Virus record (IMG/VR): IMGVR_UViG_3300048625_000174
Span: 1 to 40,557 of that record
Origin: a virus
DNA: 40,557 nucleotides
Reading direction: 5' to 3' (one strand)
The translations under genes and the position numbers were made by a program. Positions within the stretch are counted from its first letter, which is position 1. Each line of letters begins with the position of its first letter. Below, piece by piece: positions 521 through 30,356 of this stretch. The notes under the pieces were generated by a model. That model was not told the origin of the DNA. It made no database searches and worked only from the letters and a program-made list of their open reading frames with translations.

Positions 521-2061
521 TGGCCACCAAGAAACAAAAGAAGCTGACTCGCGGTGAACGAGTCATTGCTTTTATTGAACGTCATTGCCGAGCTCCAGAG
601 GGCGAGCACGTTGGCAAGCCGATTGTCCTGAGTGAATTTCAGCGAAAATTTATTCTTGACATATACGACAACAAGCATGGTACGCGCAGAGCATTCCTAA
701 GCATTGGTCGTAAAAACGGAAAGACAGCTTTAATTGCTGGCATACTTCTTGCACACATTGCAGGGCCAGAGGCGGTAATTAACAGCCAGATCATTTCAGG
801 CGCGTTGAGCCGAGAACAAGCATCGGTTGTGTTTGCTCTGGCCAGCAAGATGATTCAGATGTCTCCTGAGCTGACCAAGGTGACGCGAATCGTTCCGTCA
901 TCCAAGCGCATCATAGGACTGGCCCGAAACGTAGAGTTCAGGGCGCTGTCAGCTGACGGTAGGACGGCTCACGGTTTGTCTCCGATTCTGGCGATTCTTG
1001 ATGAGACTGGACAGGTGCGCGGCCCACAGTCGGACTTCATTGACGCGATCACTACGGCGCAAGGTGCGCACAAAGACCCGCTTTTGATTTGCATCAGCAC
1101 TCAGGCTCCGAATGACAACGATCTGCTATCCATCTGGCTGGACGATGCGCGTGAGAGCAATGACCCGCGCATTGTTTGCCACGTTTACGAGGCTCCAAAG
1201 GATGCTGACATCATGGATCGTGATGGCTGGAAGGCATCCAACCCTGCAATTGGCGTGTTCCGCAGCTTGAAGGACGTTGAGGAGCAAGCTGAAAGGGCAC
1301 AGCGGATGCCGTCATTCGAGCCAACATTCAGAAACTTGGTGCTAAACCAGCGCGTCGAGATGTCCGCGCCGTTCATCTCCAAGGGTGTTTGGCTGCTTAA
1401 CAGCATGGAAGCCGACGATTCGGTCTTCTACAAATACCCCGTCTACGGCGGTTTGGACTTGTCGGCCAAGAATGACTTGACCGCAATGGTTCTGATCGCG
1501 CACGACACAGAACGCTGGCACGTTAAACCGATCTTCTGGACTCCAGATAAGGGATTGCGTGATCGAGCCAAACGTGACCGAGCGCCGTATGACATCTGGG
1601 CAGACCAAGGGTTCATCCGAGCCTTGCCTGGCGCGTCAATCGACTACGAGATCGTTGCGCACGAGATTGTTGATACCATTTCTGACATGAACATTGTCTC
1701 GATGGCTTTTGACCGCTGGCGCTTTGACTTGCTCAAGAAGGAGTTTGACAAGATGGGCATTGAGCTACCATTGCATCCGTTCGGTCAAGGCTTCAAGGAT
1801 ATGGCTCCGGCGATTGACTCGCTTGAAACGCTGCTGCTGAATGAACAAATGGCGCATTCCGCACACCCAGTTTTGACTATGTGCATGGCAAATGCTAAGA
1901 TTGAACAAGATGCAGCCGGAAACCGCAAGCTGAACAAGCAAAAGGCGACTGGACGCATTGACGGCGCGGTTGCATTGGCGATGGCCGTAGGTGTAACCCC
2001 ACAGATAAGTACCGAAGGGGATTTCGATGGCTTTCTGTCTAATCCGGTGACGTTCAAATGA
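520..2061 (+). CDS. terL: terminase large subunit
   Basis: Packaging ATPase and headful/cos nuclease acting at the portal. The 513 residues are the usual length. A Walker A motif of the phage type GRKNGKT lies at residues 63-69, the Walker B pair LAILDE ends at residues 161-162, and the RNase H-like nuclease domain starts with GGLDLSAKNDL, with the first metal-binding Asp near residue 313. The pattern fits the Terminase_1 (HK97-like) family. The start overlaps the TerS stop by one base and the stop overlaps the portal start as ATGA, so the packaging and portal genes are translationally coupled. Confidence 0.95.
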   Translation: MATKKQKKLTRGERVIAFIERHCRAPEGEHVGKPIVLSEFQRKFILDIYDNKHGTRRAFLSIGRKNGKTALIAGILLAHIAGPEAVINSQIISGALSREQASVVFALASKMIQMSPELTKVTRIVPSSKRIIGLARNVEFRALSADGRTAHGLSPILAILDETGQVRGPQSDFIDAITTAQGAHKDPLLICISTQAPNDNDLLSIWLDDARESNDPRIVCHVYEAPKDADIMDRDGWKASNPAIGVFRSLKDVEEQAERAQRMPSFEPTFRNLVLNQRVEMSAPFISKGVWLLNSMEADDSVFYKYPVYGGLDLSAKNDLTAMVLIAHDTERWHVKPIFWTPDKGLRDRAKRDRAPYDIWADQGFIRALPGASIDYEIVAHEIVDTISDMNIVSMAFDRWRFDLLKKEFDKMGIELPLHPFGQGFKDMAPAIDSLETLLLNEQMAHSAHPVLTMCMANAKIEQDAAGNRKLNKQKATGRIDGAVALAMAVGVTPQISTEGDFDGFLSNPVTFK

Positions 2062-3731
2062 ACATGTTTTACAGCTTCTCCAATTGGGTGATCGGTGGTC
2101 TGCGCCGATCAAAAGGCATCCAGTATTCAACCCCGTCTAGCTACGCCGAAGATGCAGCATCCACAGTCACCTACGACAGTGCAATGCAGCTATCTGCGGT
2201 CTGGGCCTGCGTGAAACTGCTCGCTGAGACAGTCTCATCGCTCCCTCTCACGATCTACAAGAAGACTCCAGATGGTCGAGTTGTGTATGAAACACACGCT
2301 TTGACCACGCTTTTTGAAGGAAAAGTGAACCGATACCAGACAAAAATTGAGTTTTTTGAGACTGTTTTGCTGAATTTGGTCATCAACGGCAACTCTTACT
2401 GCAAGATTGAGCGAGTGGGCGACAGAATCGTTAGTTTGTTGCCAATCATGGCCGCGCAGGTCGAGCCGATGATGCTTGACGATGGTTCGATGGTTTACAA
2501 CTACACGAACGACCAAGGTGTTGCTGTATTCGCATCAGAGAGCATTTGGCATCTGAAATTGATGGGCAACGGAACGATTGGCATGTCTCCTTTGGCATAC
2601 CAACGCAATTCGTTGGGCATCGCACAGGCTGCTGAGAGTGCAGTCACGAAAATCTATCGCAACGGCGCAAAACCATCTGGTGTTTTGAGTATGGATCGCG
2701 TGTTGACTGATGCTCAGCGCACTGCTGTTCGCGCCAACTTCAATACATTGACCACAAGCTCTGATGATCGCTTGATGGTTCTCGAAGGTGGCATGAAGTT
2801 TGATGCCATTTCATTGTCTCCACAAGACATTGAATTGCTGGCAAGCCGTAAATTCCAAATCGCTGAAGTTTGCCGCTGGTACGGTGTGCCATCTGTGATG
2901 ATTAACGACTCGTCTGGCACGAGCGTCTGGGGTTCTGGCATTGAACAGGTGATGCAGGGCTTCTACAAGCTGACTTTGCGCCCATTGCTTGAGAAGATTG
3001 AGGCCAGCATGATGGTCAACCTGCTGACACCGGCAGAGCGCAACCGCATGGACATTGCTTTTGATTTTGATGCACTGCTTCGCGCTGATGTGAAGTCTCG
3101 CTACGAGTCATATCGCATCGCCATCACAAATGGCTTGATGACTCCGAACGAAGCTCGCGCAATGGAGCACTTGCCAGAGAAAGAAGGCGGCGATCAGTTG
3201 TTGATTCAGGGCGCTATGGCTCCTGTCGACGGCCTTGGACAGCAGAATGTTGTTGCGCCTGCTGTAGACCCTATTGCTCAAGCACAAACTGCTATTGACG
3301 AGGCTCAGAAGGATGCTCGCATGACTGCGATGTTTGAAGAGATGAAGTCTTTGAAGACATTGGTTCAGTTGAGCACAAAGAATCAGCCTGCACCAGCTCC
3401 TCAGCCAATCTCTGTTCGCATGGATGTGGATGGCAAGCAATTCTCCGATGCAGCATTGCAGATGAAGAAAACGACTGAGCACATGAACGACACGATGATT
3501 AAAGCGATGGATCGCTTCACTGACACGATGAGAAACATGCCAGCACCTAGCGTGACGGTTGAAGCCATCATGCCAGAGCTCAAGCAGATTAATCCGACAG
3601 TAACTGTTGTGAACGAAGTTGCCCCTGCTGCTGTAACTGTGGTTGATAATCATCCATCACGAGCAGTTCAAACCGTTGACAGAGATGCAAACGGAGAAAT
3701 CTTGCGCACAGTAATCAATTACGAGAAATGA
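2058..3731 (+). CDS. portal protein, HK97 family
   Basis: Dodecameric portal at the head vertex through which DNA is packaged. Residues 1-400 resemble HK97-type portals: an N-terminal SAVWACVKLLAETVSSLPL helix, a GNSYCKIER segment, WHLKLMGNGTIGMSPL, and EVCRWYGVPSVMI with the helical stem after it. At 557 residues it is about 150 longer than the core family. The extra C-terminus is rich in Gln, Met, Pro and Val (for example SVTVEAIMPELKQINPTVTV) and probably forms an extended accessory domain. ATGA overlap with the terminase. Confident on family; the role of the tail extension is unknown. Confidence 0.93.
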   Translation: MNMFYSFSNWVIGGLRRSKGIQYSTPSSYAEDAASTVTYDSAMQLSAVWACVKLLAETVSSLPLTIYKKTPDGRVVYETHALTTLFEGKVNRYQTKIEFFETVLLNLVINGNSYCKIERVGDRIVSLLPIMAAQVEPMMLDDGSMVYNYTNDQGVAVFASESIWHLKLMGNGTIGMSPLAYQRNSLGIAQAAESAVTKIYRNGAKPSGVLSMDRVLTDAQRTAVRANFNTLTTSSDDRLMVLEGGMKFDAISLSPQDIELLASRKFQIAEVCRWYGVPSVMINDSSGTSVWGSGIEQVMQGFYKLTLRPLLEKIEASMMVNLLTPAERNRMDIAFDFDALLRADVKSRYESYRIAITNGLMTPNEARAMEHLPEKEGGDQLLIQGAMAPVDGLGQQNVVAPAVDPIAQAQTAIDEAQKDARMTAMFEEMKSLKTLVQLSTKNQPAPAPQPISVRMDVDGKQFSDAALQMKKTTEHMNDTMIKAMDRFTDTMRNMPAPSVTVEAIMPELKQINPTVTVVNEVAPAAVTVVDNHPSRAVQTVDRDANGEILRTVINYEK

Positions 3732-3732
3732 T

Positions 3733-4107
3733 ATGGCAGTGACGTACTCAACAACGGTAAAAAATGCGCGACTGAGCGCAGTTGTGACGGCTATTGGTCC
3801 AACTGGTGTGCTTGAGATCGGAACAGCTGGAATGGCCACGGTGCTGGCCAGCCTTAGCCTAAGCAATCCCGCCGGTACTGTCGCCTCTGGTGTTTTGACG
3901 TTCTCTGGCTTTCCAAAGTCTGACACTGAGGCAAATGCAAGCGGAACGGCTGCTGCTGCTCGCATCCGCACAGCAACTGGTGGTGTAGACCTGATTACTG
4001 GCCTCACGGTTGGTACATCTATGTCTGACATCATCATCGACAACGTGTCAATCGTTGCTGGCCAGACAATCACAATCAACAGCGCCTCTATTACCCACGC
4101 GCCATGA
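3733..4107 (+). CDS. small structural-type protein, unknown
   Basis: I do not recognise a named family. The 124 residues are rich in Gly, Ala, Ser, Thr and Val with no Cys, no membrane segment and no charged linker, and read as a beta-rich virion protein (LEIGTAGMATVLASLSL, then SDIIIDNVSIVAGQTITI). It sits one base after the portal stop and its own stop overlaps the next start (ATGA). Its place between portal and protease suggests a minor head or decoration protein. That role is inference from position and composition. Confidence 0.75.
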   Translation: MAVTYSTTVKNARLSAVVTAIGPTGVLEIGTAGMATVLASLSLSNPAGTVASGVLTFSGFPKSDTEANASGTAAAARIRTATGGVDLITGLTVGTSMSDIIIDNVSIVAGQTITINSASITHAP

Positions 4108-4442
4108 CCACAGGAACGATGTCCGCATTGGAGGGTGATGGCGACACTCTAGGTGGCATCGTTCAATCCAACTGGTTTTTCTATTTCACGCAGCAGCCTG
4201 AAGGCGTTGACGTTTTTCAGTCTCCTATTGCCTTTGCAATGCCTGCAAGTGGCGAAATGGCGGCTTCAGAAGCTGGCGAGGATAGCTTTACTGCCATTGC
4301 CGTTCATACGGCCAAGCCAACCGTAGTTACTGGTGGAAGACGCAACGAAAACCTTGTTTGGGGCGAGTGGCCAGCCCTAGATGACGAGGAAGCGCGTAAA
4401 ATTAAGCGCAAACGCAACGAATTGTTGCTGTTGCTTCACTGA
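4104..4442 (+). CDS. small head-region protein, unknown
   Basis: A 112-residue protein of unknown function. It has a hydrophobic aromatic patch (SNWFFYFTQQPEG), an Ala/Gly/Glu-rich middle and a basic C-terminal end, RKIKRKRNELLLLLH. It is translationally coupled to the preceding gene by ATGA and lies 32 bases before the prohead protease. Context suggests a virion or assembly accessory role; nothing in the sequence identifies it. Confidence 0.7.
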   Translation: MTTGTMSALEGDGDTLGGIVQSNWFFYFTQQPEGVDVFQSPIAFAMPASGEMAASEAGEDSFTAIAVHTAKPTVVTGGRRNENLVWGEWPALDDEEARKIKRKRNELLLLLH

Positions 4443-4474
4443 AACCTTACAATTCCGTGAAAAGGGATATGCAA

Positions 4475-5110
4475 ATGGAAACAAAACGTCTTGCTGTAAA
4501 TTCGCTCGACCTGAAATTTGTCGGCGACGATATGTCGTTTTCTGGTTACGCCTCAGTGTTTGGCGGCGTGGATGCTTATGGCGACACGATTGACCCGAAG
4601 GCGTATGACCGCACACTCATCAACCGTGATCGTCCGATTCGATTGCGTTGGAACCACTATGGCCCTGTAATTGGCAAGTGGAAAAACATGTTTGTTGATG
4701 ACAAGGGTTTGTTTGTTGAGGGTCAATTGACACCTGGCCATTCAACCGCAATGGATGTCTATGCTTCGATGAAGCACGGCGCTATCGACGGTATGTCCAT
4801 TGGTTACATCCCGACAAAGAGCGAGCAGATTGATGACAATCGTCGCTTGTTGAAAGAAATTGATTTGTTTGAGATCAGTGTTGTTGAAGAGCCTGCCGAT
4901 TTGAACGCTACGATCAATAGCGTGAAGTCAGCTCTCGAAACTGCCTCAAGCATTCGTGAAGTTGAAGCTGTGCTGAGGGAGTCAGGCGGCTTTAGTCGGA
5001 ATGATGCGTGTATGCTGGTATCGCGTATCAAGTCCTTGCTGAAAGGCGATCTTTTGGCAGAAGAAGATGCCAAGCGAGAAATTGCTCGGCTGTTCCAGAT
5101 TAAAGCGTAA
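4475..5110 (+). CDS. prohead maturation protease, HK97 U35/S78 family
   Basis: Serine protease that cleaves the delta domain from the capsid protein and then itself during head maturation. The family His is visible in RWNHYGPVIGKW (His 61 from this start) and the nucleophile Ser in GAIDGMSIGY (Ser 108). The GYASVFGGVDAYGDTIDP opening and LFEISVVEEPA core are typical. The 211-residue length is normal. Start ATG 4475 is preferred over GTG 4457 and ATG 4469 because AAAGGG at 4461-4466 then lies 8 bases upstream. The gene directly precedes the capsid gene, as expected. Confidence 0.93.
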   Translation: METKRLAVNSLDLKFVGDDMSFSGYASVFGGVDAYGDTIDPKAYDRTLINRDRPIRLRWNHYGPVIGKWKNMFVDDKGLFVEGQLTPGHSTAMDVYASMKHGAIDGMSIGYIPTKSEQIDDNRRLLKEIDLFEISVVEEPADLNATINSVKSALETASSIREVEAVLRESGGFSRNDACMLVSRIKSLLKGDLLAEEDAKREIARLFQIKA

Positions 5111-5132
5111 CCACTCCTTAAAGGAAATCATC

Positions 5133-6281
5133 ATGGAATTGAAAGACATCATCGAAGCTGGTTTGAAGTCGCAAGAAGTCAAACTGCAAGCTGCCATCGA
5201 CAAGTTCGAAGGCCAATTGAAAGACAAAGGCAATGTTGACACCGAAGTCAAAGGCGAAGTGAAAGAACTGTCTGAGCAGTTCAAGTCTTTGTCTACTCAA
5301 ATGACTGAGTTGGCACAAAAGCAAACCGTTGCTGCACAAATGGAAGCCAAGCCTGTTTCCGCTGCTGAAGAGTTCGTTAAGTCTGAGCAATTCAAACAGC
5401 TCGTGACTGGCAACACTCAACGCGCTCGCTTTGAAGTTAAGAACACTGTGACCTCTGGTTCTACAACTGTGTTCCCAGACCAAAAGCCTGGCATCATTCC
5501 TGGCAACTTCTTGCCCACTAGCATCCGCGCTGCTTTGACTAGCATCGCTGTGTCTACCAACATGGTCAACGCTTTGCGTGAAGCCACTTGGACAAACTCT
5601 GCTGCTGAAGTATCTCAAGGCGCTTCCAAGGCTGAGTCTGATGCGACTTTTGAGCAATACAACGTGCCAATCACAACCGTTGCTCACTGGATAAAAATCT
5701 CAAATCAGCTATTGGCTGACGCTCCTGCTGTTGTGGCTTATATTGAGTCTCGCTTGCGTGACGGTTTGGCTCAACGCATCGACGCTCAGTTGCTTAACGG
5801 CAATGGCACTAGCCCTAACCTGTCTGGCTTGACTGACAGCGGTAACTTCACTGCCTACAGTGCTTCTAGCGATGACTTGTTGGTTGACGCAATCTCTCGT
5901 GCAAAATACGCTTTGTGGGCAACCGGCAACGCTCCTGACACTGTAATCGTGAACCCTGCGGACTGGGGCGCAATGGAGCGTACACGCGAGACTTACACAG
6001 GCGGCAAAGGCGAATACCTGTACGGTATGCCTGGCATGGCTGCTGGCATGAACCCATTTGGCGTGAATGTGATTCTTTCGAACCACATGGCTTCTGGCAA
6101 GTTCCTGATCGGCGCATTGCGTACTTCTGCAATCCTTTACAATCGCAGCGGTGCTGTAATTGAAATGGGTTACATTAACGAAGATTTCACCAAAAACTTA
6201 ATTACAATTCGCGCAGAAGAGCGTTTGGGCTTAGGCACCGAGCGTCCTGCTGGCATTTTGTACGGTGACTATTCCGCTTAA
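5133..6281 (+). CDS. major capsid protein, HK97 fold
   Basis: Main shell protein. The first ~100 residues from ATG 5133 are a Lys/Glu/Gln-rich coiled coil (the delta or scaffold domain normally removed by the protease), and the rest is the HK97-type shell: TSIRAALTSIAVSTNMVNALREA, spread over two segments here, then NGNGTSPNLSGL, and the conserved end NLITIRAEERLGLGTERPAGI. Start 5133 has AAGGAA at 5120-5125 at good spacing; an in-frame ATG at 5067 lies inside the protease gene and is unlikely. Codon use is strongly biased (GCT, CGC, AAG), fitting a highly expressed gene. A strong terminator follows. Confidence 0.95.
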   Translation: MELKDIIEAGLKSQEVKLQAAIDKFEGQLKDKGNVDTEVKGEVKELSEQFKSLSTQMTELAQKQTVAAQMEAKPVSAAEEFVKSEQFKQLVTGNTQRARFEVKNTVTSGSTTVFPDQKPGIIPGNFLPTSIRAALTSIAVSTNMVNALREATWTNSAAEVSQGASKAESDATFEQYNVPITTVAHWIKISNQLLADAPAVVAYIESRLRDGLAQRIDAQLLNGNGTSPNLSGLTDSGNFTAYSASSDDLLVDAISRAKYALWATGNAPDTVIVNPADWGAMERTRETYTGGKGEYLYGMPGMAAGMNPFGVNVILSNHMASGKFLIGALRTSAILYNRSGAVIEMGYINEDFTKNLITIRAEERLGLGTERPAGILYGDYSA

Positions 6282-6297
6282 GGTGTAAAGTTTTAAG

Positions 6298-6320
6298 AAG
6301 CCCTCTTCGGAGGGCTTTTT
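6298..6320 (+). terminator. rho-independent terminator after capsid gene
   Basis: Perfect 8-bp stem AAGCCCTC/GAGGGCTT closed by a TTCG tetraloop and followed by further T residues, 17 bases after the capsid stop. It should end or weaken head-gene transcription before the HNH gene. Confidence 0.9.
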
Positions 6321-6363
6321 AACGTCCAAAATAAACCGAGTAAAATATGCAAAAGGAGATTTT

Positions 6364-7044
6364 ATGGAAGTCAAATTTTGCAATAAATGCTCAACTAAAA
6401 AGTCATTGTTTGAGTTTGGCAAATCGAACAGGAGTAAGGATGGATTGCAGTCTAAGTGTAAGGAATGCGACAAAGATTACCGAAATAAAAATAAAAGCAA
6501 GATTGCCAAGTACATGTCTGAGTACAACATAAAAAACAGAGATTTACTGGTCAAGAAAAAAAGACAGTACAGAATAGAAAACATAGACGAAATAAGAAGA
6601 CGAGACAGGCTGTGGTCTATAAAAAATAAAGAAAAGGTAAGAGCAAACCAAGAAAAGCAATGGTCACTAAACAGGAAGAAATATTACGCTAAGGCTGTTG
6701 AAAGATGCAAGTTGAGAAGGTCGAGCGATGATATTTATTACTTGAAAGGGAAAATATCTCATAGAGTGCGTATGGCCATGAAAGGAATTGGTCTAAGAAA
6801 AGGTTCAGCAACATCAGAAATGATCGGATGCACTTGGGAAGAGTTTCATTTGCATATTGAGCGCCAATTCCAAAAAGGCATGACTTGGAAAAACAGAAAC
6901 CTATGGCATATCGACCACATAATTCCACTAGCCACAGCAACTTGTGAAGATGACATAATCCGACTTAACCATTTCACAAACCTTCGTCCGTTGTGGGCTG
7001 AAGACAACCTTCGCAAAAGCGACAAACTGGAGTACATCTTATGA
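6364..7044 (+). CDS. HNH homing-type endonuclease with zinc ribbon
   Basis: Probable selfish free-standing endonuclease. The N-terminus has a Cys4 zinc ribbon (Cys 6, 9, 32, 35), the middle is Lys/Arg-rich DNA-binding helix, and the C-terminal nuclease has WHIDHIIPL (His 182, Asp 184, His 185) followed by NHFTNLRPLWAEDNLRKSDK with the Asn residues of the HNH fold. It is AT-rich in codon choice (AAA, AGA, ATA) unlike the capsid gene before it, a sign of separate origin. AGGAG at 6354-6358 sets the start. It sits between the capsid terminator and the next structural gene, whose start it overlaps (ATGA). Confidence 0.9.
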   Translation: MEVKFCNKCSTKKSLFEFGKSNRSKDGLQSKCKECDKDYRNKNKSKIAKYMSEYNIKNRDLLVKKKRQYRIENIDEIRRRDRLWSIKNKEKVRANQEKQWSLNRKKYYAKAVERCKLRRSSDDIYYLKGKISHRVRMAMKGIGLRKGSATSEMIGCTWEEFHLHIERQFQKGMTWKNRNLWHIDHIIPLATATCEDDIIRLNHFTNLRPLWAEDNLRKSDKLEYIL

Positions 7045-7331
7045 AAATCGTAATCACATCAAAGAAGCCAATCATGGCTGTCGGCTATGGTCGCTTGCCA
7101 GCTGGTGTGCCAGTTGAAGTCAAGGACTCATTGGCTATGTTTTTTATCGAACGAGGGGAAGCTGTTCGTTTTGAGACAAAGGAGTTGGCAGATCGCCCTT
7201 TAGTGGAAGATGGCGAGGAGGAACAGTCGTCGTCCTTGCCAGCGGCCCAAGCCTCAACGGAGGAGACATCGAGCGAGTCAGAAACTGGCGTTTCGATGAG
7301 CAAGCGCGGACGCAAGAAAAAAGGGCAGTAA
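7041..7331 (+). CDS. small head-region protein; probable frameshift donor
   Basis: The 0-frame product has 96 residues. Residues 1-54 form a compact, folded-looking domain (MKIVITSKKPIMAVGYGRL, later MFFIERGEAVRFETKEL). Residues 55-96 are low-complexity acidic/Ser-rich sequence ending SKRGRKKKGQ. That tail is exactly the part that overlaps conserved codons of the next gene in the -1 frame, so it looks like overprinted filler. GGAG about 8 bases upstream supports ATG 7041. Function not recognised. Two products are likely: this 96-residue form and a -1 fusion of about 248 residues. Confidence 0.8.
   Translation: MKIVITSKKPIMAVGYGRLPAGVPVEVKDSLAMFFIERGEAVRFETKELADRPLVEDGEEEQSSSLPAAQASTEETSSESETGVSMSKRGRKKKGQ
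7178..7241 (+). other. candidate programmed -1 frameshift cassette
   Basis: The heptamer CCCTTTA at 7196-7202 is read C CCT TTA in the upstream gene, the canonical X XXY YYZ arrangement. An SD-like AAAGGAG (7178-7184) ends 11 bases before it, as in bacterial dnaX-type sites. After an 8-base spacer comes a 9-bp stem (7211-7219 with 7233-7241, one G-U pair). Slipping by -1 enters the frame that encodes the next gene, which is open from 7175 but has no ATG, GTG or TTG before its conserved region. All elements are seen in the sequence; function is inferred. Confidence 0.7.
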
Positions 7332-7786
7332 TTGTTGCCAACACCACGTTCAGAGCCGCGCCTTGGGCGGATGCTCTGTTTGCTCTTGATGAGCCTTGGT
7401 GGTCGTTGCATCTTGATGAAGTGAACCGTGACTTCGTTGGCCAGAGGTTCTGCACGAACAATCTGCCAGCGAAGTATATGACGACATATCTGAATCCTGC
7501 GAAATTCAACGCCTACGGAAATTCTGGTGCTGGCGGAGTGTCTTTGGCGCTGTTCGGAGATGCTGAGCGCGTGATCATGCTTGGGTTTGATTGTCAGCAC
7601 ACATACGGCAAGGCTCACTGGCACGGAAACCACCCCAGAGGGCTCGCAAACGCGAAACAGATAGACAGGTGGCCTGCGCTATTTAAACGACTCAGAGACG
7701 ACCATCCTGACGCTGAAATCATCAATGCAAGCCGAGTGACGGCGCTTGATATGTTTCCGAGACGAAATCTTGAGGATCTGCTGTGA
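7202..7786 (+). CDS. MptE/glycosyltransferase-like phage protein, likely frameshift-expressed
   Basis: The conserved reading frame begins FSGRWRGGTVVVLASGPSL just after the slippery heptamer and runs to 7786; RAVIVANTTFRAAPWADALF and a GFDCQHTYGKAHWHGNHP segment follow. The VVVLASGPSL beta-loop near the start resembles the nucleotide-binding opening of MptE/DUF115-like proteins seen beside glycosyltransferases in phage head modules. The first in-frame ATG (7455 or later region; a TTG at 7406 also exists) would delete this conserved N-terminus. I therefore infer synthesis as a fusion to the first 54 residues of the upstream gene, about 248 residues in all. An unusual start codon is the alternative. 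The stop overlaps the next GTG start. Confidence 0.65.
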   Translation, partial: SGRWRGGTVVVLASGPSLNGGDIERVRNWRFDEQARTQEKRAVIVANTTFRAAPWADALFALDEPWWSLHLDEVNRDFVGQRFCTNNLPAKYMTTYLNPAKFNAYGNSGAGGVSLALFGDAERVIMLGFDCQHTYGKAHWHGNHPRGLANAKQIDRWPALFKRLRDDHPDAEIINASRVTALDMFPRRNLEDLL

Positions 7787-8370
7787 GAATTTGCGTTTTA
7801 AGAAGCGGAAAAGAGTACGGGCCGAAGCACGTACAGTGGCTTGCGCGACAGGTTCCTGATTTGGTTTGCCTTTCTGATGTTGAGGTTGAGGGTGTGCACA
7901 CCATAAGGCTCAAACACGATTGGCCAGGCTGGTGGGCGAAGATGGAGCTGTTTCGGCCTGACATTCAGGAAGATCTGCTGTTTTTCGACCTTGACACAGT
8001 TGTCATCGGTGGCATTGAGCAGCTTGAGTCTCTTGAGCACACTACGCTGCTCAGTGATTTTTACAAGCCTCACTTGCCCGCTTCCGGCTTGATGTTGATC
8101 AAGAATCGCGACAAAGACAGGGTTTGGTCTGACTGGATGGAAAACCCAGAGGCACACATGAGGCGCTGCGTGACACGCGAGCATTGGGGTGATCAGGGTT
8201 ATCTGCGTGACGTTTTGCCGTGCAAGCGCTGGCAGATTGAGCTGCCGAACAAGATTTTCAGCTACAAGGCGCATTCATTGAAAATCGTGCCGGTAGGCGC
8301 AAGCGTGATCTGCTTCCATGGCAACCCACGACCATGGGATGTCAAAAAGAGTTGGATTCCTGAGCTTTGA
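7783..8370 (+). CDS. glycosyltransferase-like protein (DxD type)
   Basis: A 195-residue protein with a GT-A style core: RICVLRSGKEYGPKHVQWLARQ opening (shown in full length 22 only as parts: RICVLRSG and HVQWLARQ), KHDWPGWWAKMELF, and LLFFDLDTVVIGG carrying a DxD motif at Asp 69/Asp 71, then HWGDQGYLRDVL and a closing VICFHGNPRPW. These features match the nucleotide-sugar transferases of the GT8-like group. GTG start with GAGG about 9 bases upstream; overlaps the previous stop (GTGA). Placed in the head module with the MptE-like gene, it may modify virion proteins or a host glycan; the substrate cannot be read from sequence. Confidence 0.78.
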   Translation: MRICVLRSGKEYGPKHVQWLARQVPDLVCLSDVEVEGVHTIRLKHDWPGWWAKMELFRPDIQEDLLFFDLDTVVIGGIEQLESLEHTTLLSDFYKPHLPASGLMLIKNRDKDRVWSDWMENPEAHMRRCVTREHWGDQGYLRDVLPCKRWQIELPNKIFSYKAHSLKIVPVGASVICFHGNPRPWDVKKSWIPEL

Positions 8371-8386
8371 AAGGTAAACTCTGGGC

Positions 8387-9007
8387 ATGAGCAATACAAA
8401 CTTTCCTTTCTGGCAGGGCTTGAAGAAGCTCCTCGTTGACCGAGGGGATGGAACGCACGCTGAGCGCGTTGAGGCTTACCCGCCGGTGAAATTGATGACT
8501 CAGGATGACAGCGATCACGCTCGATTAAAAGTTGATACTGGTAATACAGGGTTCTTTTCTGGTCATGAGTTTCGTACCTTCTACGAATTCAGCATCCCAT
8601 CTGGCCAGACTCGCGTGATAAAGGTTGTTGCACCGATTGACACCATCGTTCAAATGTTCGCTACCGAGCTTGATCTGGCCGAGCTTCGAGTCGAACTTCG
8701 CGCAGGTGGAACTGAGGGTGGAACTTTCTCGACTGCCATACCATCGCTTCCAGCTAACGGTATGAGCACAACATCTGGCTACGCAGGTCAGGTTGCAATG
8801 AGTACAGGTGGCACACACACTGGCGGAACCGTTTACGACTTGCTGACGTTATACAGCGGAGCAAATGCAAACAAGGCTGTTGCTTCTACAGCTTCTGAAA
8901 GTCTTCCACAAGGCTTTCCAGCTGGAACCTATTACATTTCATTGCAGAATACTGATGGCGCAACTGCCACTGGCATATTCCGCGCACGTTGGGAAGAAAG
9001 ACCATGA
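8387..9007 (+). CDS. beta-rich virion protein, unknown
   Basis: The 206 residues lack Cys and are rich in Gly, Thr, Ser and Ala, with alternating hydrophobic strands (FRTFYEFSIPSGQTRVIKV, then LRVELRAGGTEGGTF, and GTYYISLQNTDGATATGIF at the end). This is typical of jelly-roll or Ig-like decoration proteins. Start ATG 8387 has only a distant AAAGG. The stop overlaps the next ATG (ATGA), tying it to the connector genes. A head decoration or small fibre role is inferred; no named family recognised. Confidence 0.72.
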   Translation: MSNTNFPFWQGLKKLLVDRGDGTHAERVEAYPPVKLMTQDDSDHARLKVDTGNTGFFSGHEFRTFYEFSIPSGQTRVIKVVAPIDTIVQMFATELDLAELRVELRAGGTEGGTFSTAIPSLPANGMSTTSGYAGQVAMSTGGTHTGGTVYDLLTLYSGANANKAVASTASESLPQGFPAGTYYISLQNTDGATATGIFRARWEERP

Positions 9008-9327
9008 GCATCATTACATTGGCAACAGCTAAACTCCACCTTCGCGTGGATCACACAGACGAAGACACGCTTATCCAGATTTATCTGGATGGCTGCGAGA
9101 AGGCTGCGTCAAACTATCTTGGCCGCAATCTGTACGCCTCAAGCATCGGTAGCGACTTGGACGGATTGGTCATGGATGATGCAGTTAAGAGCGCCATCTT
9201 GCTCCAAGTGGGCAACCTCTATGCGAACCGCGAGGCCACGGTGCAACCAATGCGCTCTGCAATTGTTGAGTTGCCTCTTGGTGTAAAGTGGTTGCTTGAT
9301 CCATATCGCATCAACTTGGGCATGTAA
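9004..9327 (+). CDS. head-tail connector protein, gp6-like
   Basis: A 107-residue protein with the short all-helical plan of HK97 gp6/SPP1 gp15 connectors: TLATAKLHLRVDHTDEDTLI, a helix with YLDGCEKAASNYLGRNLY, AILLQVGNLYANREA, and the end LPLGVKWLLDPYR. This family ring binds under the portal. ATG 9004 is chosen because it overlaps the previous stop as ATGA; an in-frame ATG at 8989 also exists. It begins the standard connector-gene order seen downstream. Confidence 0.85.
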   Translation: MSIITLATAKLHLRVDHTDEDTLIQIYLDGCEKAASNYLGRNLYASSIGSDLDGLVMDDAVKSAILLQVGNLYANREATVQPMRSAIVELPLGVKWLLDPYRINLGM

Positions 9328-9328
9328 T

Positions 9329-9649
9329 ATGCAAGCAGGCCGCTTAAAAAATCGTGTTGTAATTCAGCAACAATCGACGACTCAGGACTCGATTGGCCAG
9401 CCTGTAAACACTTGGACGACTTACGCGACAGTCTGGGCAAACATCATTCACCAGAAGGGCGCTGAGGCGATCAAAGCAGACCAAGTGATGTCTACGCTTC
9501 GAGCCAGTATTCGCGTTCGTTACAAGGCCGGTATCACAACCGCAATGCGAGTGTCTTACGCATCGAAGATTTACCAGATCATCTCCATCATTCCTGATGC
9601 TGAAAGCAAGGATTACATGGATTTGGTTTGTGAGGTATACGGTGGCTAG
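9329..9649 (+). CDS. head-tail adaptor / head closure protein
   Basis: The 106-residue protein begins MQAGRLKNRVVIQQQSTTQD and continues GQPVNTWTTYATVWANI, GAEAIKADQVMS and IRVRYKAGITTAMRVSY. This is the characteristic pattern of the Phage_H_T_join family (SPP1 gp16/HK97 gp7-like), a small beta-barrel ring that closes the head exit and joins the tail. ATG 9329 follows the previous stop directly and matches the family's usual N-terminus. Confidence 0.9.
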   Translation: MQAGRLKNRVVIQQQSTTQDSIGQPVNTWTTYATVWANIIHQKGAEAIKADQVMSTLRASIRVRYKAGITTAMRVSYASKIYQIISIIPDAESKDYMDLVCEVYGG

Positions 9650-10133
9650 AGGCCAGAATTCCATTACGATTTCAATTGATACATCATCTGTTCAGAGGAT
9701 GATGACTGAGCTTGCCGAAAATGCAAGAGATGCCATCAGACCTGCGGCTCAGGCTGGTGCTCAAGTGATTTACGAGGAAGCAAAGAGGCTGGCCGGACGC
9801 AGCGCTAAGTCACATTACTTCTATGGAACTTCATGGAAGAGTGGTAGCGAGAGCAAGGCTGGACGGTACAAATTCAATCCTGGAAACCTTCAGAGATCAA
9901 TCTATCAGGTCTACTCGAAGGATAATTCTAGTCAAGACCTCGCAACTTACCATGTGAGTTGGAATATGGAGAAAGCTCCATACGGCTTGTTTGTTGAGTA
10001 CGGTATTAGCCCGTACATCAAAAAAGGAACAGCATCTCAGCAGTCGTTCATTCGTGCGGCTGCTTTAAACAAGAGCGAGGAAGCTGCTCTTGCAATTGAA
10101 GGTGAACTTGCTAAAAGGTTGGGCAATTTATGA
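9642..10133 (+). CDS. tail completion protein, HK97 gp10-like
   Basis: A 163-residue protein of the HK97 gp10 family type, needed to complete the tail end that meets the head. Typical parts are ISIDTSSVQRMMTELAENA, AAQAGAQVIYEEAKRLAG, GNLQRSIYQVYSKD, and the Gly/Phe-Val-Glu-Tyr-Gly box YGLFVEYGISPYIKKG. Start GTG 9642 is preferred: GAGG at 9632-9635 is well spaced and the overlap with the adaptor stop is 8 bases. An in-frame ATG at 9597 would overlap the adaptor gene much more. ATGA overlap with the next gene. Confidence 0.85.
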   Translation: MARGQNSITISIDTSSVQRMMTELAENARDAIRPAAQAGAQVIYEEAKRLAGRSAKSHYFYGTSWKSGSESKAGRYKFNPGNLQRSIYQVYSKDNSSQDLATYHVSWNMEKAPYGLFVEYGISPYIKKGTASQQSFIRAAALNKSEEAALAIEGELAKRLGNL

Positions 10134-27589: not shown

Positions 27590-27777
27590 TTTCTGACTCC
27601 AAAAACGTCAATGTCTGCTTTCAATTTGCCACGGCTCAACTTCTGAATCTTCAGCTGTGCCATTGCGGGGATACGGCCACGAGTGCGCCAGTTGCTGATG
27701 CAAGGCTCGCAGACCTCTAAGACCTCAGCCAGCTTGCGCTGTGTCTTGTAATGTTTTATTGCTTGTTCCAAGGTCAT
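27586..27777 (-). CDS. Cro/YdaS-like HTH protein
   Basis: A 63-residue protein: LEQAIKHYKTQRKLAEVLEV followed by CEPCISNWRTRGRIPAMAQL. This is the helix-turn-helix of small Cro or YdaS-like regulators, with the W..RG.IP box after the recognition helix. The C-terminus (KADIDVFGVRK) is short and basic. It lies between the helicase and mazG with ATGA overlaps at both ends. It is a candidate for the protein that binds the TCACA-NN-TGTGA sites. Confidence 0.8.
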   Translation of the reverse strand: MTLEQAIKHYKTQRKLAEVLEVCEPCISNWRTRGRIPAMAQLKIQKLSRGKLKADIDVFGVRK

Positions 27778-30356
27778 ACAGACTCCAAATTGTTCACAGT
27801 TGTGATTGTAGCATTCAGCTCCTTAAGCTGTTTAGGCTTCATGCGCAAGATTTCCGAGCGAGTGTGGCCACAGGTGTCGAGTGGGCCAAATCCAGTTTTG
27901 GCTTGTATGGCCATCAATTTATCGAAAACCAAGTTCTGTAACTCCTGCTTAGCAAGCCTAGCCTCAATGATCTTCTCGGCCCTGCCACGACTCATTCCTT
28001 GAGCAACCAGCTCATGAACAGTCTGAGCCTTGCCTTGCTGCACGAATCTGTCACGGCGCATCTTCTCGATCTGAGCCTGCTCAATTTCCTTCAGCTCTCC
28101 GTCAACGTGCTCAATCTTTCGAGCTTTGATCTCGTATTCATGGCCACAGGCTGGACAAAACGGCGCTGGAGCGTGAATTGCAAAGCACTTGGGGCATGAC
28201 TTCACTTTTACATCGTCTTCGTCGTCAAAGTCTGATTTACGCTTCTTTTTCTTTACGCCTTCCAGCGTCCAGACTCGCTCCTCATCTGGCAAGCCATGAC
28301 GCATTACGTTGCCAGCATGGTCGAGAATGATTGCAGTCTTTCCAACCGCAGGACGCAAGGCTCTGCCCCATCTTTGCATGGCATTCACCAGCGACTGAGT
28401 GGGAGCCAGATCAATCACGCAATCAATGGTCACATCCTTTTGCGCAATGCTGGCCAGATCGAAGCCCTCGCTCAAGATATTGACGTTGGTGATGACAGAA
28501 ATACTGCCGTCAGCGAAGTCAATGATCGCCTTGTCACGCTCAGAATCGTCAGTGCCACCGTCAATGTGAGCCGCAGGTATGCCATTGGCATTGAACTCGG
28601 CTGCAACGTGTTTGCTATGCTCCACAGACACGCAGAAGATGGCCGTCTTCTTGCCCATTGCATGTTTGCGCCAATGCATGATCGCGTCACCCGTGATCTT
28701 TGGCTTGTCAACAACATCTTGGAGTTCTTTTGTCGCGAAATCACCCATCCGTGTTTTTACCGATGAGACATCAATCTGATGCTGCGCGGTGAATACTCGG
28801 TACGGAGACAGGAACCCGCTTTCTATCAGCCAAGTCATGGGCGGAGCCTCGATGATCGTGTCGGCATAACCTCCGTGACCTTTGCCTAAACCCTTGCCAT
28901 CAAGACGCTCTGGTGAGGCTGTAACTATCAGGCCGACATTGCCTGACTCAACAACATATTTATCCATAATTTTTCCCCACATCGTGCCTTCTGTGACGTG
29001 ATGGCAGTTATGAACAAGAATGTCATTTGCAAAATAATTATGGTTTCCTTCTACTTCAATGTTGTAGACAAAACCGTCTGAAAGCAATCCTCCAAATTTT
29101 CCGTCACTTGTTTGTTCGTGAATCTCAACACTTTCCACCCAAACGATTGAAGAAGCTCTGTCTTTTTCGCGTCTTGAGCCTTTCTCTCCAAAGACAGATG
29201 ACTCAAGCCATCCACCTCGATTGCAATCATTAACTGTGGAATCGCAACATCCACCTTGTAGCACGGCGGATAACCCATTCCTCTTGCTATTCCAGTGGTT
29301 ACAACATGTTCCGATACAACTCCGCTGAACTCCTCCTTGAGCCTCAGAAATATTGCAGCTTGAGCATCCGTCATTCCGCGACCATTCCCGCCACGAGAAA
29401 CTGGCTTGTGGCCCATAGCAATCAATGTTGCTCTCATCTTCTGACGCGCTTCTATTGACCTCATAGGATTTCTTGCCTTCATCCTGTCTGATGCATACTT
29501 CCTGTTTGTCTTTGCCATCGTTTCCGACGATAGCTTTGATCTGTAAGCATTCGAACAAATCTTTCCGCAAAAAACCCATCCTGGTTTTTTCATTCTCTCT
29601 ACCTGGTATTTGGTTTCTATCTTTACAGTCGCTCCGCATTGTTTGCAGTTTGAAAATTGGCATGCCTGGTTTAAGTTCTTTTGCATTGAAATATCCGTAA
29701 GAAGGAATAAAAAATGGATGTCCATCAGTACATGAAACATTGCTTCCATCGCTGAAATTAATGGTGCACATAGACTTTGGACGACTTTTAAAAAGTTTAA
29801 TGATGCGCTTTGACTCAACTATACCAGTTAAGTGATTGACAGACCTCACCATGTCACCAATTTTTAAAGAATCTATGCTTTTTCCATCAATTTTTGTTCC
29901 AGCAGGAAAGCATTCATCCTGTATTACGATAGTTTTTGCTTTTCTCCCAAGTTTTTTTGATAGGTTATTTAATGCTGAATCAATGACATCAAACCTTCCA
30001 ACCATTGTTTGAACCGAGCCAACCATCGTTGAAGATGATGAATCAACAAACGAAGCGCCAAATGCCTTGAACTGCGCAATCTTGATCTGACGAACCAGCG
30101 ATGAGGGCGCGATGACGTTGTGAGGCAATGCGAACCTGGCCAGCGACAAGCTGATCTGGCGGATGATCTCTTTGCGGTGAGCTGCAATGATGATGGCGCT
30201 ACCTTTTTCAGCTGCATTTTTTGCAATGTAGCTAAACATGACAGTCTTGCCAGCGCCAGTTGCGGCGACAACCAGAGGGCATTTGTAGCCTTCAGAGTAT
30301 GCGACTCGAACCTCATTGACTACATCTTGCTGGTATGGACGGAGGGAGATTGTCAT
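27774..30356 (-). CDS. SF2 DEAD/DEAH-type helicase interrupted by an intein
   Basis: The precursor has 860 residues: N-extein 1-148, intein 149-450, C-extein 451-860; the spliced helicase would have 558. Helicase motifs: LRPYQQDVV, Walker A AATGAGKT (31-38), AHRKEI (motif Ia), motif II DE|CHH split by the intein, TASPERLDGKGLG (III), then NVNILSEGFDLASI (V) and MQRWGRALRP (VI). A CPKC...CPAC zinc knuckle follows the helicase core. It probably unwinds or remodels DNA in replication or recombination. Without splicing, motif II is broken, so the enzyme should be inactive until the intein is removed. ATGA overlaps link it to genes on either side. Confidence 0.92.
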   Translation of the reverse strand: MTISLRPYQQDVVNEVRVAYSEGYKCPLVVAATGAGKTVMFSYIAKNAAEKGSAIIIAAHRKEIIRQISLSLARFALPHNVIAPSSLVRQIKIAQFKAFGASFVDSSSSTMVGSVQTMVGRFDVIDSALNNLSKKLGRKAKTIVIQDECFPAGTKIDGKSIDSLKIGDMVRSVNHLTGIVESKRIIKLFKSRPKSMCTINFSDGSNVSCTDGHPFFIPSYGYFNAKELKPGMPIFKLQTMRSDCKDRNQIPGRENEKTRMGFLRKDLFECLQIKAIVGNDGKDKQEVCIRQDEGKKSYEVNRSASEDESNIDCYGPQASFSWREWSRNDGCSSCNISEAQGGVQRSCIGTCCNHWNSKRNGLSAVLQGGCCDSTVNDCNRGGWLESSVFGEKGSRREKDRASSIVWVESVEIHEQTSDGKFGGLLSDGFVYNIEVEGNHNYFANDILVHNCHHVTEGTMWGKIMDKYVVESGNVGLIVTASPERLDGKGLGKGHGGYADTIIEAPPMTWLIESGFLSPYRVFTAQHQIDVSSVKTRMGDFATKELQDVVDKPKITGDAIMHWRKHAMGKKTAIFCVSVEHSKHVAAEFNANGIPAAHIDGGTDDSERDKAIIDFADGSISVITNVNILSEGFDLASIAQKDVTIDCVIDLAPTQSLVNAMQRWGRALRPAVGKTAIILDHAGNVMRHGLPDEERVWTLEGVKKKKRKSDFDDEDDVKVKSCPKCFAIHAPAPFCPACGHEYEIKARKIEHVDGELKEIEQAQIEKMRRDRFVQQGKAQTVHELVAQGMSRGRAEKIIEARLAKQELQNLVFDKLMAIQAKTGFGPLDTCGHTRSEILRMKPKQLKELNATITTVNNLESV
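29007..29912 (-). mobile_element. intein in helicase motif II, with endonuclease gene overprinted inside
   Basis: 302 codons. Block A is CFPAGTKIDGKSIDSLKIGD with Cys1 at helicase residue 149. Block B is SCTDGHPFF with the TxxH pair (Thr 210, His 213). Block F is GFVYNIEVEGNHNYFAND. Block G is ILVHN with the penultimate His and terminal Asn 450, followed by Cys +1. All splicing residues are present. Residues ~241-404 are Cys/Ser/Gly-rich and show no family pattern; they are the shadow translation of a homing endonuclease gene that uses the +1 frame of the same strand. No LAGLIDADG domain exists in the intein frame. Confidence 0.9.
29051..29686 (-). CDS. Vsr/EDxHD-type homing endonuclease nested in the intein
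   Basis: 211 residues read in the +1 frame relative to the helicase. In order: Cys4 zinc finger (Cys 14, 17, 40, 44), an NPMRSIEARQKMRATLIAMG segment, GHKPVSRGGNGRGMT, and a Vsr-like nuclease YKVDVAIPQLMIAIEVDGLS with Glu 157, Asp 159, His 163 and Asp 172 (the EDxHD pattern), closing GWKVLRFTNKQVTENLED. This is the family I know from I-Bth0305I and the endonucleases of fractured, split-intein genes. ATG 29686 has a weak GGA upstream; an earlier in-frame ATG (29818) adds unrelated residues. The last ~20 codons overlap intein block F. Confidence 0.87.
   Translation of the reverse strand: MQKNLNQACQFSNCKQCGATVKIETKYQVERMKKPGWVFCGKICSNAYRSKLSSETMAKTNRKYASDRMKARNPMRSIEARQKMRATLIAMGHKPVSRGGNGRGMTDAQAAIFLRLKEEFSGVVSEHVVTTGIARGMGYPPCYKVDVAIPQLMIAIEVDGLSHLSLERKAQDAKKTELLQSFGWKVLRFTNKQVTENLEDCFQTVLSTTLK

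Follow-up and report, generated by a model that had tools for sequence, protein, structure and literature searches.

A homing endonuclease gene overprinted in the +1 frame of a predicted, apparently intact phage helicase intein

In a canonical bifunctional intein, which is mobile, the endonuclease lies between the two halves of the Hint splicing domain, is read in frame with them and is part of the intein. In the fractured genes reportedly described by Dassa et al. in 2009, the intein is split and a free-standing endonuclease stands between the halves, in the order IntN, EDxHD-type nuclease, IntC; the host frame is broken and the protein is trans-spliced. A 2025 study by Gosselin, Arsenault and Gogarten appears, to judge from its title ("Actinobacteriophage Inteins: ... 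Non-Canonical Architecture"), to concern unusual phage intein architectures, and it may be a precedent for an out-of-frame endonuclease in an intein. The sole close precedent that our literature search found is the ShiLan domain, which is out of frame but lacks an intein. With this domain and with the Pacc40 gp60 insertion, a phage host gene gains no stop codon and an HNH nuclease is encoded in a different frame; the insertion has neither intein motifs nor an intein fold and is thought to remain in the protein (Arsenault, Gosselin, and Gogarten 2025, PMC11855218). I-Bth0305I, an EDxHD enzyme, is the nuclease of a group I intron (PMC3943268).

Here we analyzed a 40,557-nucleotide stretch of viral DNA (IMG/VR record IMGVR_UViG_3300048625_000174, hereafter the window), which the terminase, portal, and tape measure genes identify as a tailed-phage record. 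On its minus strand, an ORF of 860 codons (30356..27774) runs with no interruption anywhere, through a helicase and the intein within it, and a second ORF lies inside the intein on the same strand. The features of the locus are as follows.

27774..30356, minus strand: helicase-intein precursor ORF, 860 codons, encoding a RadD-like SF2 helicase plus an intein (Pfam, NCBIfam)
29913..30356, minus strand: N-extein, 148 codons, terminating in the DE of helicase motif II
29007..29912, minus strand: predicted class 1 intein, 302 codons in an open frame, with C1, TxxH, HN, and +1 Cys and with intein/BIL fold matches
29637..29912, minus strand: N-terminal splicing half, intein residues ~1-92 (intN HMM and Hint model, pLDDT 96-98 over residues 1-90)
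29157..29636, minus strand: shadow linker, intein residues ~93-252, in the intein frame a mere shadow of the endonuclease (pLDDT; 0 stops)
29007..29156, minus strand: C-terminal splicing half, intein residues ~253-302, overlapping the 3' end of the endonuclease (intC HMM and Hint model, pLDDT 86-97)
27774..29006, minus strand: C-extein, from CHH (the remainder of motif II) to the stop codon
29051..29686, minus strand: EDxHD/DUF559 homing endonuclease ORF, 211 codons plus stop, +1 relative to the intein (Pfam, alignments, structure)
29684..29686, minus strand: likeliest endonuclease start, an ATG with a weak Shine-Dalgarno sequence; other in-frame starts lie as far as 29818
29171..29251, minus strand: catalytic-type residues D146, E157, D159, H163, and D172, invariant in endonuclease alignments A1 and A2

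The long ORF matches the Pfam families ResIII (1.6e-14) and Helicase_C (2e-13), and its NCBIfam RadD match is below the cut-off. The intein occupies precursor residues 149-450 and is inserted in helicase motif II (DE/CHH). It begins with the C1 residue (CFPAGT), carries CTDGHP in block B, and ends in ILVHN before the CHH of the extein. The residues expected of a class 1 intein (an initial Cys/Ser, the TxxH of block B, a C-terminal HN, and Cys/Ser/Thr at +1) are all in place, and the splicing residues are conserved. Profile matches to Intein_splicing (Pfam, 2.7e-10, above the cut-off) and to the intein C-terminal region (TIGR01443, 1.3e-8) agree with the motifs, and sequence matches in the PDB include the fractured-gene inteins gp41-1 and NrdJ-1. 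In the predicted structure, both splicing halves are modeled at pLDDT 86-98, while the linker lies mostly at 40-53 and is devoid of secondary structure. The top Foldseek matches of this model are intein and BIL domains (E 5e-6), and the window intein is thus predicted to have the Hint fold of a class 1 intein. By its motifs, the helicase-frame precursor probably splices.

The +1 ORF matches Pfam DUF559 (7.9e-12, above the cut-off) and is modeled with a mean pLDDT of 92. Its nearest solved structures are 3hrl (profile match 6e-11) and the I-Bth0305I catalytic domain 3r3p (profile match 0.0037; fold match with prob 1.00, E 6e-3). The five catalytic-type residues appear to fit the EDxHD active site, by pattern rather than by residue-level superposition. 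The original prediction had the helicase frame open through an intein with all splicing residues, which the 860-codon ORF and Pfam bear out with the intein coordinates (29912..29007) exact; it also placed a 211-codon endonuclease in the +1 frame of the same strand, which is the ORF at 29686..29051, and its "Vsr/EDxHD" label agrees with the two nearest structures.

Each of the described systems shares part of this layout. Like the ShiLan domain, the locus has an off-frame homing-type endonuclease in an open insertion of a phage gene, with a patchy distribution; unlike it, the insertion appears to be an intact intein, by motifs and fold, and the nuclease is of the EDxHD rather than the HNH type. 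The order of the parts is that of fractured genes, but here the host frame runs unbroken across the nuclease, and the two host ORFs and intein-frame stops of a split intein are found in 10 relatives and not in the window. As in canonical bifunctional inteins, a nuclease lies between the halves of the splicing domain of a mobile element, but it is in the +1 frame and would be a separate protein, not an in-frame part of the intein. With the endonuclease in +1 and no stop in the intein frame, the intein is neither fused nor split, as originally proposed. Finally, the nuclease shares the EDxHD catalytic domain of I-Bth0305I by profile and fold but is overprinted on an intein instead of residing in a group I intron.

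A nuclease ORF that lies off the host-gene frame is usual in group I introns, and the insertion could on that ground be read as a group I or group II intron, or as a non-splicing, ShiLan domain-like insertion with an internal ORF, leaving the intein frame irrelevant. We regard this as highly improbable in the face of intact intein motifs, the purifying selection on them described below, and the predicted Hint fold. For a group I intron specifically, Rfam gave no match in the whole window at the gathering threshold, i.e., no sign of catalytic intron RNA, and we reject that candidate.

The same layout recurs far beyond this phage. In all 40 phage records with a nuclease relative, that relative lies within an annotated gene at the helicase locus, and in the phage records with the layout that were inspected, the endonuclease has no CDS of its own. 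A first sample of 181 loci was drawn from IMG/VR and GTDB genome scans plus phage loci, and loci were classified using profile HMMs for the nuclease and for both splicing halves. The first scans gave 214 and 216 candidates and a second scan gave 127; 80 of each were taken in. Relatives with the same nested +1 gene, the search for which was part of the original prediction, made up 101 of the 111 first-scan loci with both halves, all with an unbroken intein frame; the other 10 were split. The number of intein-frame stops is bimodal among these 111 loci (0 in 101, 15-31 in nine, and 2 in L041), and none is nested in another frame. The second scan was seeded with the intein end and the first extein residues instead of the nuclease body, and 78 of 78 loci with both halves were again nested in +1, a result that does not depend on the nuclease body, although it is not fully free of the layout, as the seed overlaps the endonuclease C-terminus. 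In-frame fusion with an open intein frame occurred in 0 of 111 and 0 of 78 loci in the two scans. After shared contigs (manually) and three mini-inteins were removed, at least ~157 distinct full-length loci have the layout.

Among the sources of these loci are Vibrio, Pseudomonas, and Corynebacterium phages, Ktedonobacter racemifer DSM 44963, and metagenome bins labeled Chloroflexi, Clostridia, Acidobacteriota, Myxococcales, Acidimicrobiales, Epsilonproteobacteria, Acetobacteraceae, WWE3, and Elusimicrobia. One viral contig, IMGVR_UViG_3300049719_000183, holds two overprinted inteins in different genes (L094 and L212).

How likely is such a frame to stay open by chance? We used a codon null in which the endonuclease amino acids are held fixed and synonymous codons are drawn at local usage. 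Over the 169-codon shadow stretch of the window, 10.4 stops are expected and none is present (P=3.4e-6). The long open frame was originally put at roughly 1 in 2,000-10,000 by chance; its rarity holds, but that figure was too generous, the frame being rarer still. Across 76 clusters, the summed log10 P of all shadow frames being open is -384 under the same null. The avoidance can be seen codon by codon. A T-ending codon before AAN, AGN, or GAN creates a shadow stop, and such risky codons number 0 of 2,658 in nested loci but reach 38% among free-standing relatives and 40% among split ones; the zero itself follows from the loci being stop-free, and the weight lies in the contrast with the free-standing and split relatives. 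Among the differences that separate five independent close pairs, 179 are nuclease-synonymous; ~19 stops were expected from them and none arose, and because of this we reject shared descent as the cause of the missing stops.

Another reading is an accidental open frame, or indel errors masking an ordinary in-frame fusion, and at single GC-rich loci an open frame could arise by chance (P up to 0.27, in L066). For the family, this reading is scarcely credible: the layout is present in at least ~157 loci from independent assemblies and isolates, the joint probability is ~1e-384 under the codon null, and the close pairs show no stop among their synonymous changes. The codon null and the close-pair test rule out chance openness, and the number of loci in independent assemblies rules out an in-frame fusion hidden by indels.

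Synonymous and nonsynonymous change in each frame, a comparison that had also been proposed, gives a consistent picture. Within the shadow region, the nuclease frame has a pN/pS of 0.17-0.19 and the intein frame one of 1.20; the two splicing halves, read in their own frame, show 0.21 and 0.42. The first of these tests used non-independent pairs, and a repeat on the five independent pairs gave the same result. Taken together, these values show conservation of the nuclease sequence and of both splicing halves, with a linker that may change in any way short of a stop. The endonuclease frame in the shadow region is under purifying selection, and the intein frame need only stay open. The original prediction left open whether the locus is an intermediate or a stable new layout; with at least ~157 loci and selection against shadow stops, the stable layout is favored. 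Overprinting is the normal architecture of a widespread intein family.

Other layouts in the family bear on its history. Relatives with a stop-containing linker, which had been expected to speak against the overprinted reading, are present, but they are a minority clade inside overprinted diversity. Split members include L021, L022, L024, L092, L099, and L114. In the main split clade, the N-half meets a stop ~ten codons past the splicing HMM, and a separate ATG for the C-half lies within the 3' end of the nuclease. Three mini-inteins of 142-146 amino acids (L205:2707-3132, L224:2578-3003, and L253:2686-3123) retain the nuclease C-terminus in the +1 frame. In L253, both ends of the nuclease are joined (CHLCGKK, then FLNSFGWTVLRF), the trace of an internal deletion. 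At L041:3008-4497, the nuclease is in frame with the intein N-half and ends there, and the C-half is in another frame.

The overprinted layout looks like the source of the split copies and mini-inteins and not a step toward fusion. An in-frame deletion of the nuclease body would yield a mini-intein. A C-half that can be started separately would lose the no-stop constraint, and the split, or fractured, arrangement could follow. The opposite history, in which the split state is ancestral and the overprinted state arose by removal of stops, is allowed by the geometry, as 9 of 10 split loci retain the +1 register at both ends, which permits either direction. The nuclease tree behind the overprinted-to-split direction is unrooted, and most of its deep forks lack resolution. 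We nevertheless judge this history unlikely, considering that the main split clade (6 rows, SH-aLRT 100) is nested among the far larger diversity of overprinted rows and that 15-31 stops are far more easily gained than lost. The alternative bears on history only and leaves the mechanism unaffected.

Evidence for mobility comes from allele pairs. With the CP-T1 intein taken out, the helicases of the Vibrio phages CP-T1 and vB_VchM-138 align over 640 columns without a gap and agree at 631 of them. The two are an occupied and an empty allele of one site, which makes the insertion precise at the level of the family. The empty site reads DE/AHH in vB_VchM-138 versus DE/C...N/CHH in CP-T1, as would be expected if the element carries its +1 Cys codon with it by co-conversion. 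In Vibrio phages K391 and K459, the exteins are almost the same; K391 holds a 356-amino-acid overprinted intein, and at the same site K459 has a nuclease-free mini-intein of ~150 amino acids (L186:1643-3724). In distant pairs, the inteins are more alike than the exteins, e.g., 70% for the intein C-half versus 25% for the helicase C-part between the window and L013. This allele distribution is what points to site-specific cleavage as the probable driver of homing.

Close free-standing relatives of the nuclease lie immediately upstream of an intein-less DExx helicase gene at L050:3355-5626, L060:3944-6084, and L106:3965-6033, and overlap its start. This suggests a nuclease beside its target gene as the source of the element, and it is possible that these are cases of intronless homing. 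The L060 helicase (L060:4554-6084) has a frameshift exactly where motif II is encoded (the frame is lost after IIIDE), the presumed cut site, which is either a sequencing error or a repair scar.

Altogether, the best explanation, in which we have high confidence, is a mobile intein with a homing endonuclease gene overprinted on its linker in the +1 frame. One mRNA would be read in two ways. The helicase frame would give the 860-amino-acid precursor, whose Hint halves would fold together across the disordered linker and splice the intein out to leave a 558-amino-acid helicase. The +1 frame would give a separate EDxHD nuclease, with translation probably initiated internally, close to where the N splicing half ends. 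This nuclease would cut the motif II codons of helicase genes that lack the intein, and the break would be repaired by copying the intein from the occupied allele, together with the +1 Cys codon required for splicing, as the allele pairs suggest. Selection, as seen in the pattern of substitutions, keeps the nuclease sequence in one frame and bars only stops from the other, because a stop in the intein frame would truncate the helicase.

The main rival at the nuclease translation step keeps the same layout but makes the nuclease a fusion to the N-extein and N-intein, produced by programmed +1 ribosomal frameshifting. The two ORFs overlap on the N side in the right phase for this, and several loci have an open +1 frame that reaches far upstream of the nuclease domain. 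In 15 loci, however, the domain is preceded by an in-frame stop no more than 15 codons away, which leaves little room to shift, and many loci have strong Shine-Dalgarno sites, so we consider frameshifting quite unlikely. Strong Shine-Dalgarno sequences precede 32% of the best start candidates versus 5% of controls (p=0.014); this enrichment over the family is significant but modest, so internal initiation is a probable route rather than an established one. The nested endonucleases of L036:3986-4612 and L055:4028-4594 have no ATG, GTG, or TTG between the upstream stop and the domain, and they may reflect either frameshifting, an unusual start, or decay.

Overprinting with an entirely different nuclease is found in Xanthomonas phage FoX3 (L005:1528-3894), whose intein is also at DE/CHH and encodes a LAGLIDADG_2 nuclease (9e-22).

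L005:1959-2717: FoX3 LAGLIDADG_2 endonuclease, in the +2 frame, unrelated to the EDxHD nuclease

The FoX3 shadow frame is open for 210 codons, over which 3.6 stops are expected (P=4e-4). A search for relatives of this LAGLIDADG nuclease returned the FoX3 genome alone, and FoX3 is an apparent second, independent origin of overprinting, seen in one phage. It is fairly probable, in our view, that mobile inteins come in three stable architectures, namely in-frame fusion, fracture, and overprinting, the last with at least two origins (EDxHD in +1 and the FoX3 LAGLIDADG in +2), kept in phages and in bacterial genomes of many phyla by selection against shadow stops, and ancestral to EDxHD fractured genes and some mini-inteins.

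This would be a new architecture for a textbook mobile element, in which a separate nuclease protein shares its DNA with an intein and the nuclease gene rides in a host coding sequence without joining the host protein. It offers a concrete origin for fractured genes, with mini-intein fossils that display the step of loss. It is also a same-strand gene overlap of ~160 codons, conserved across deep divergence, in which one frame is kept solely for its openness. Annotation misses such overprinted genes.
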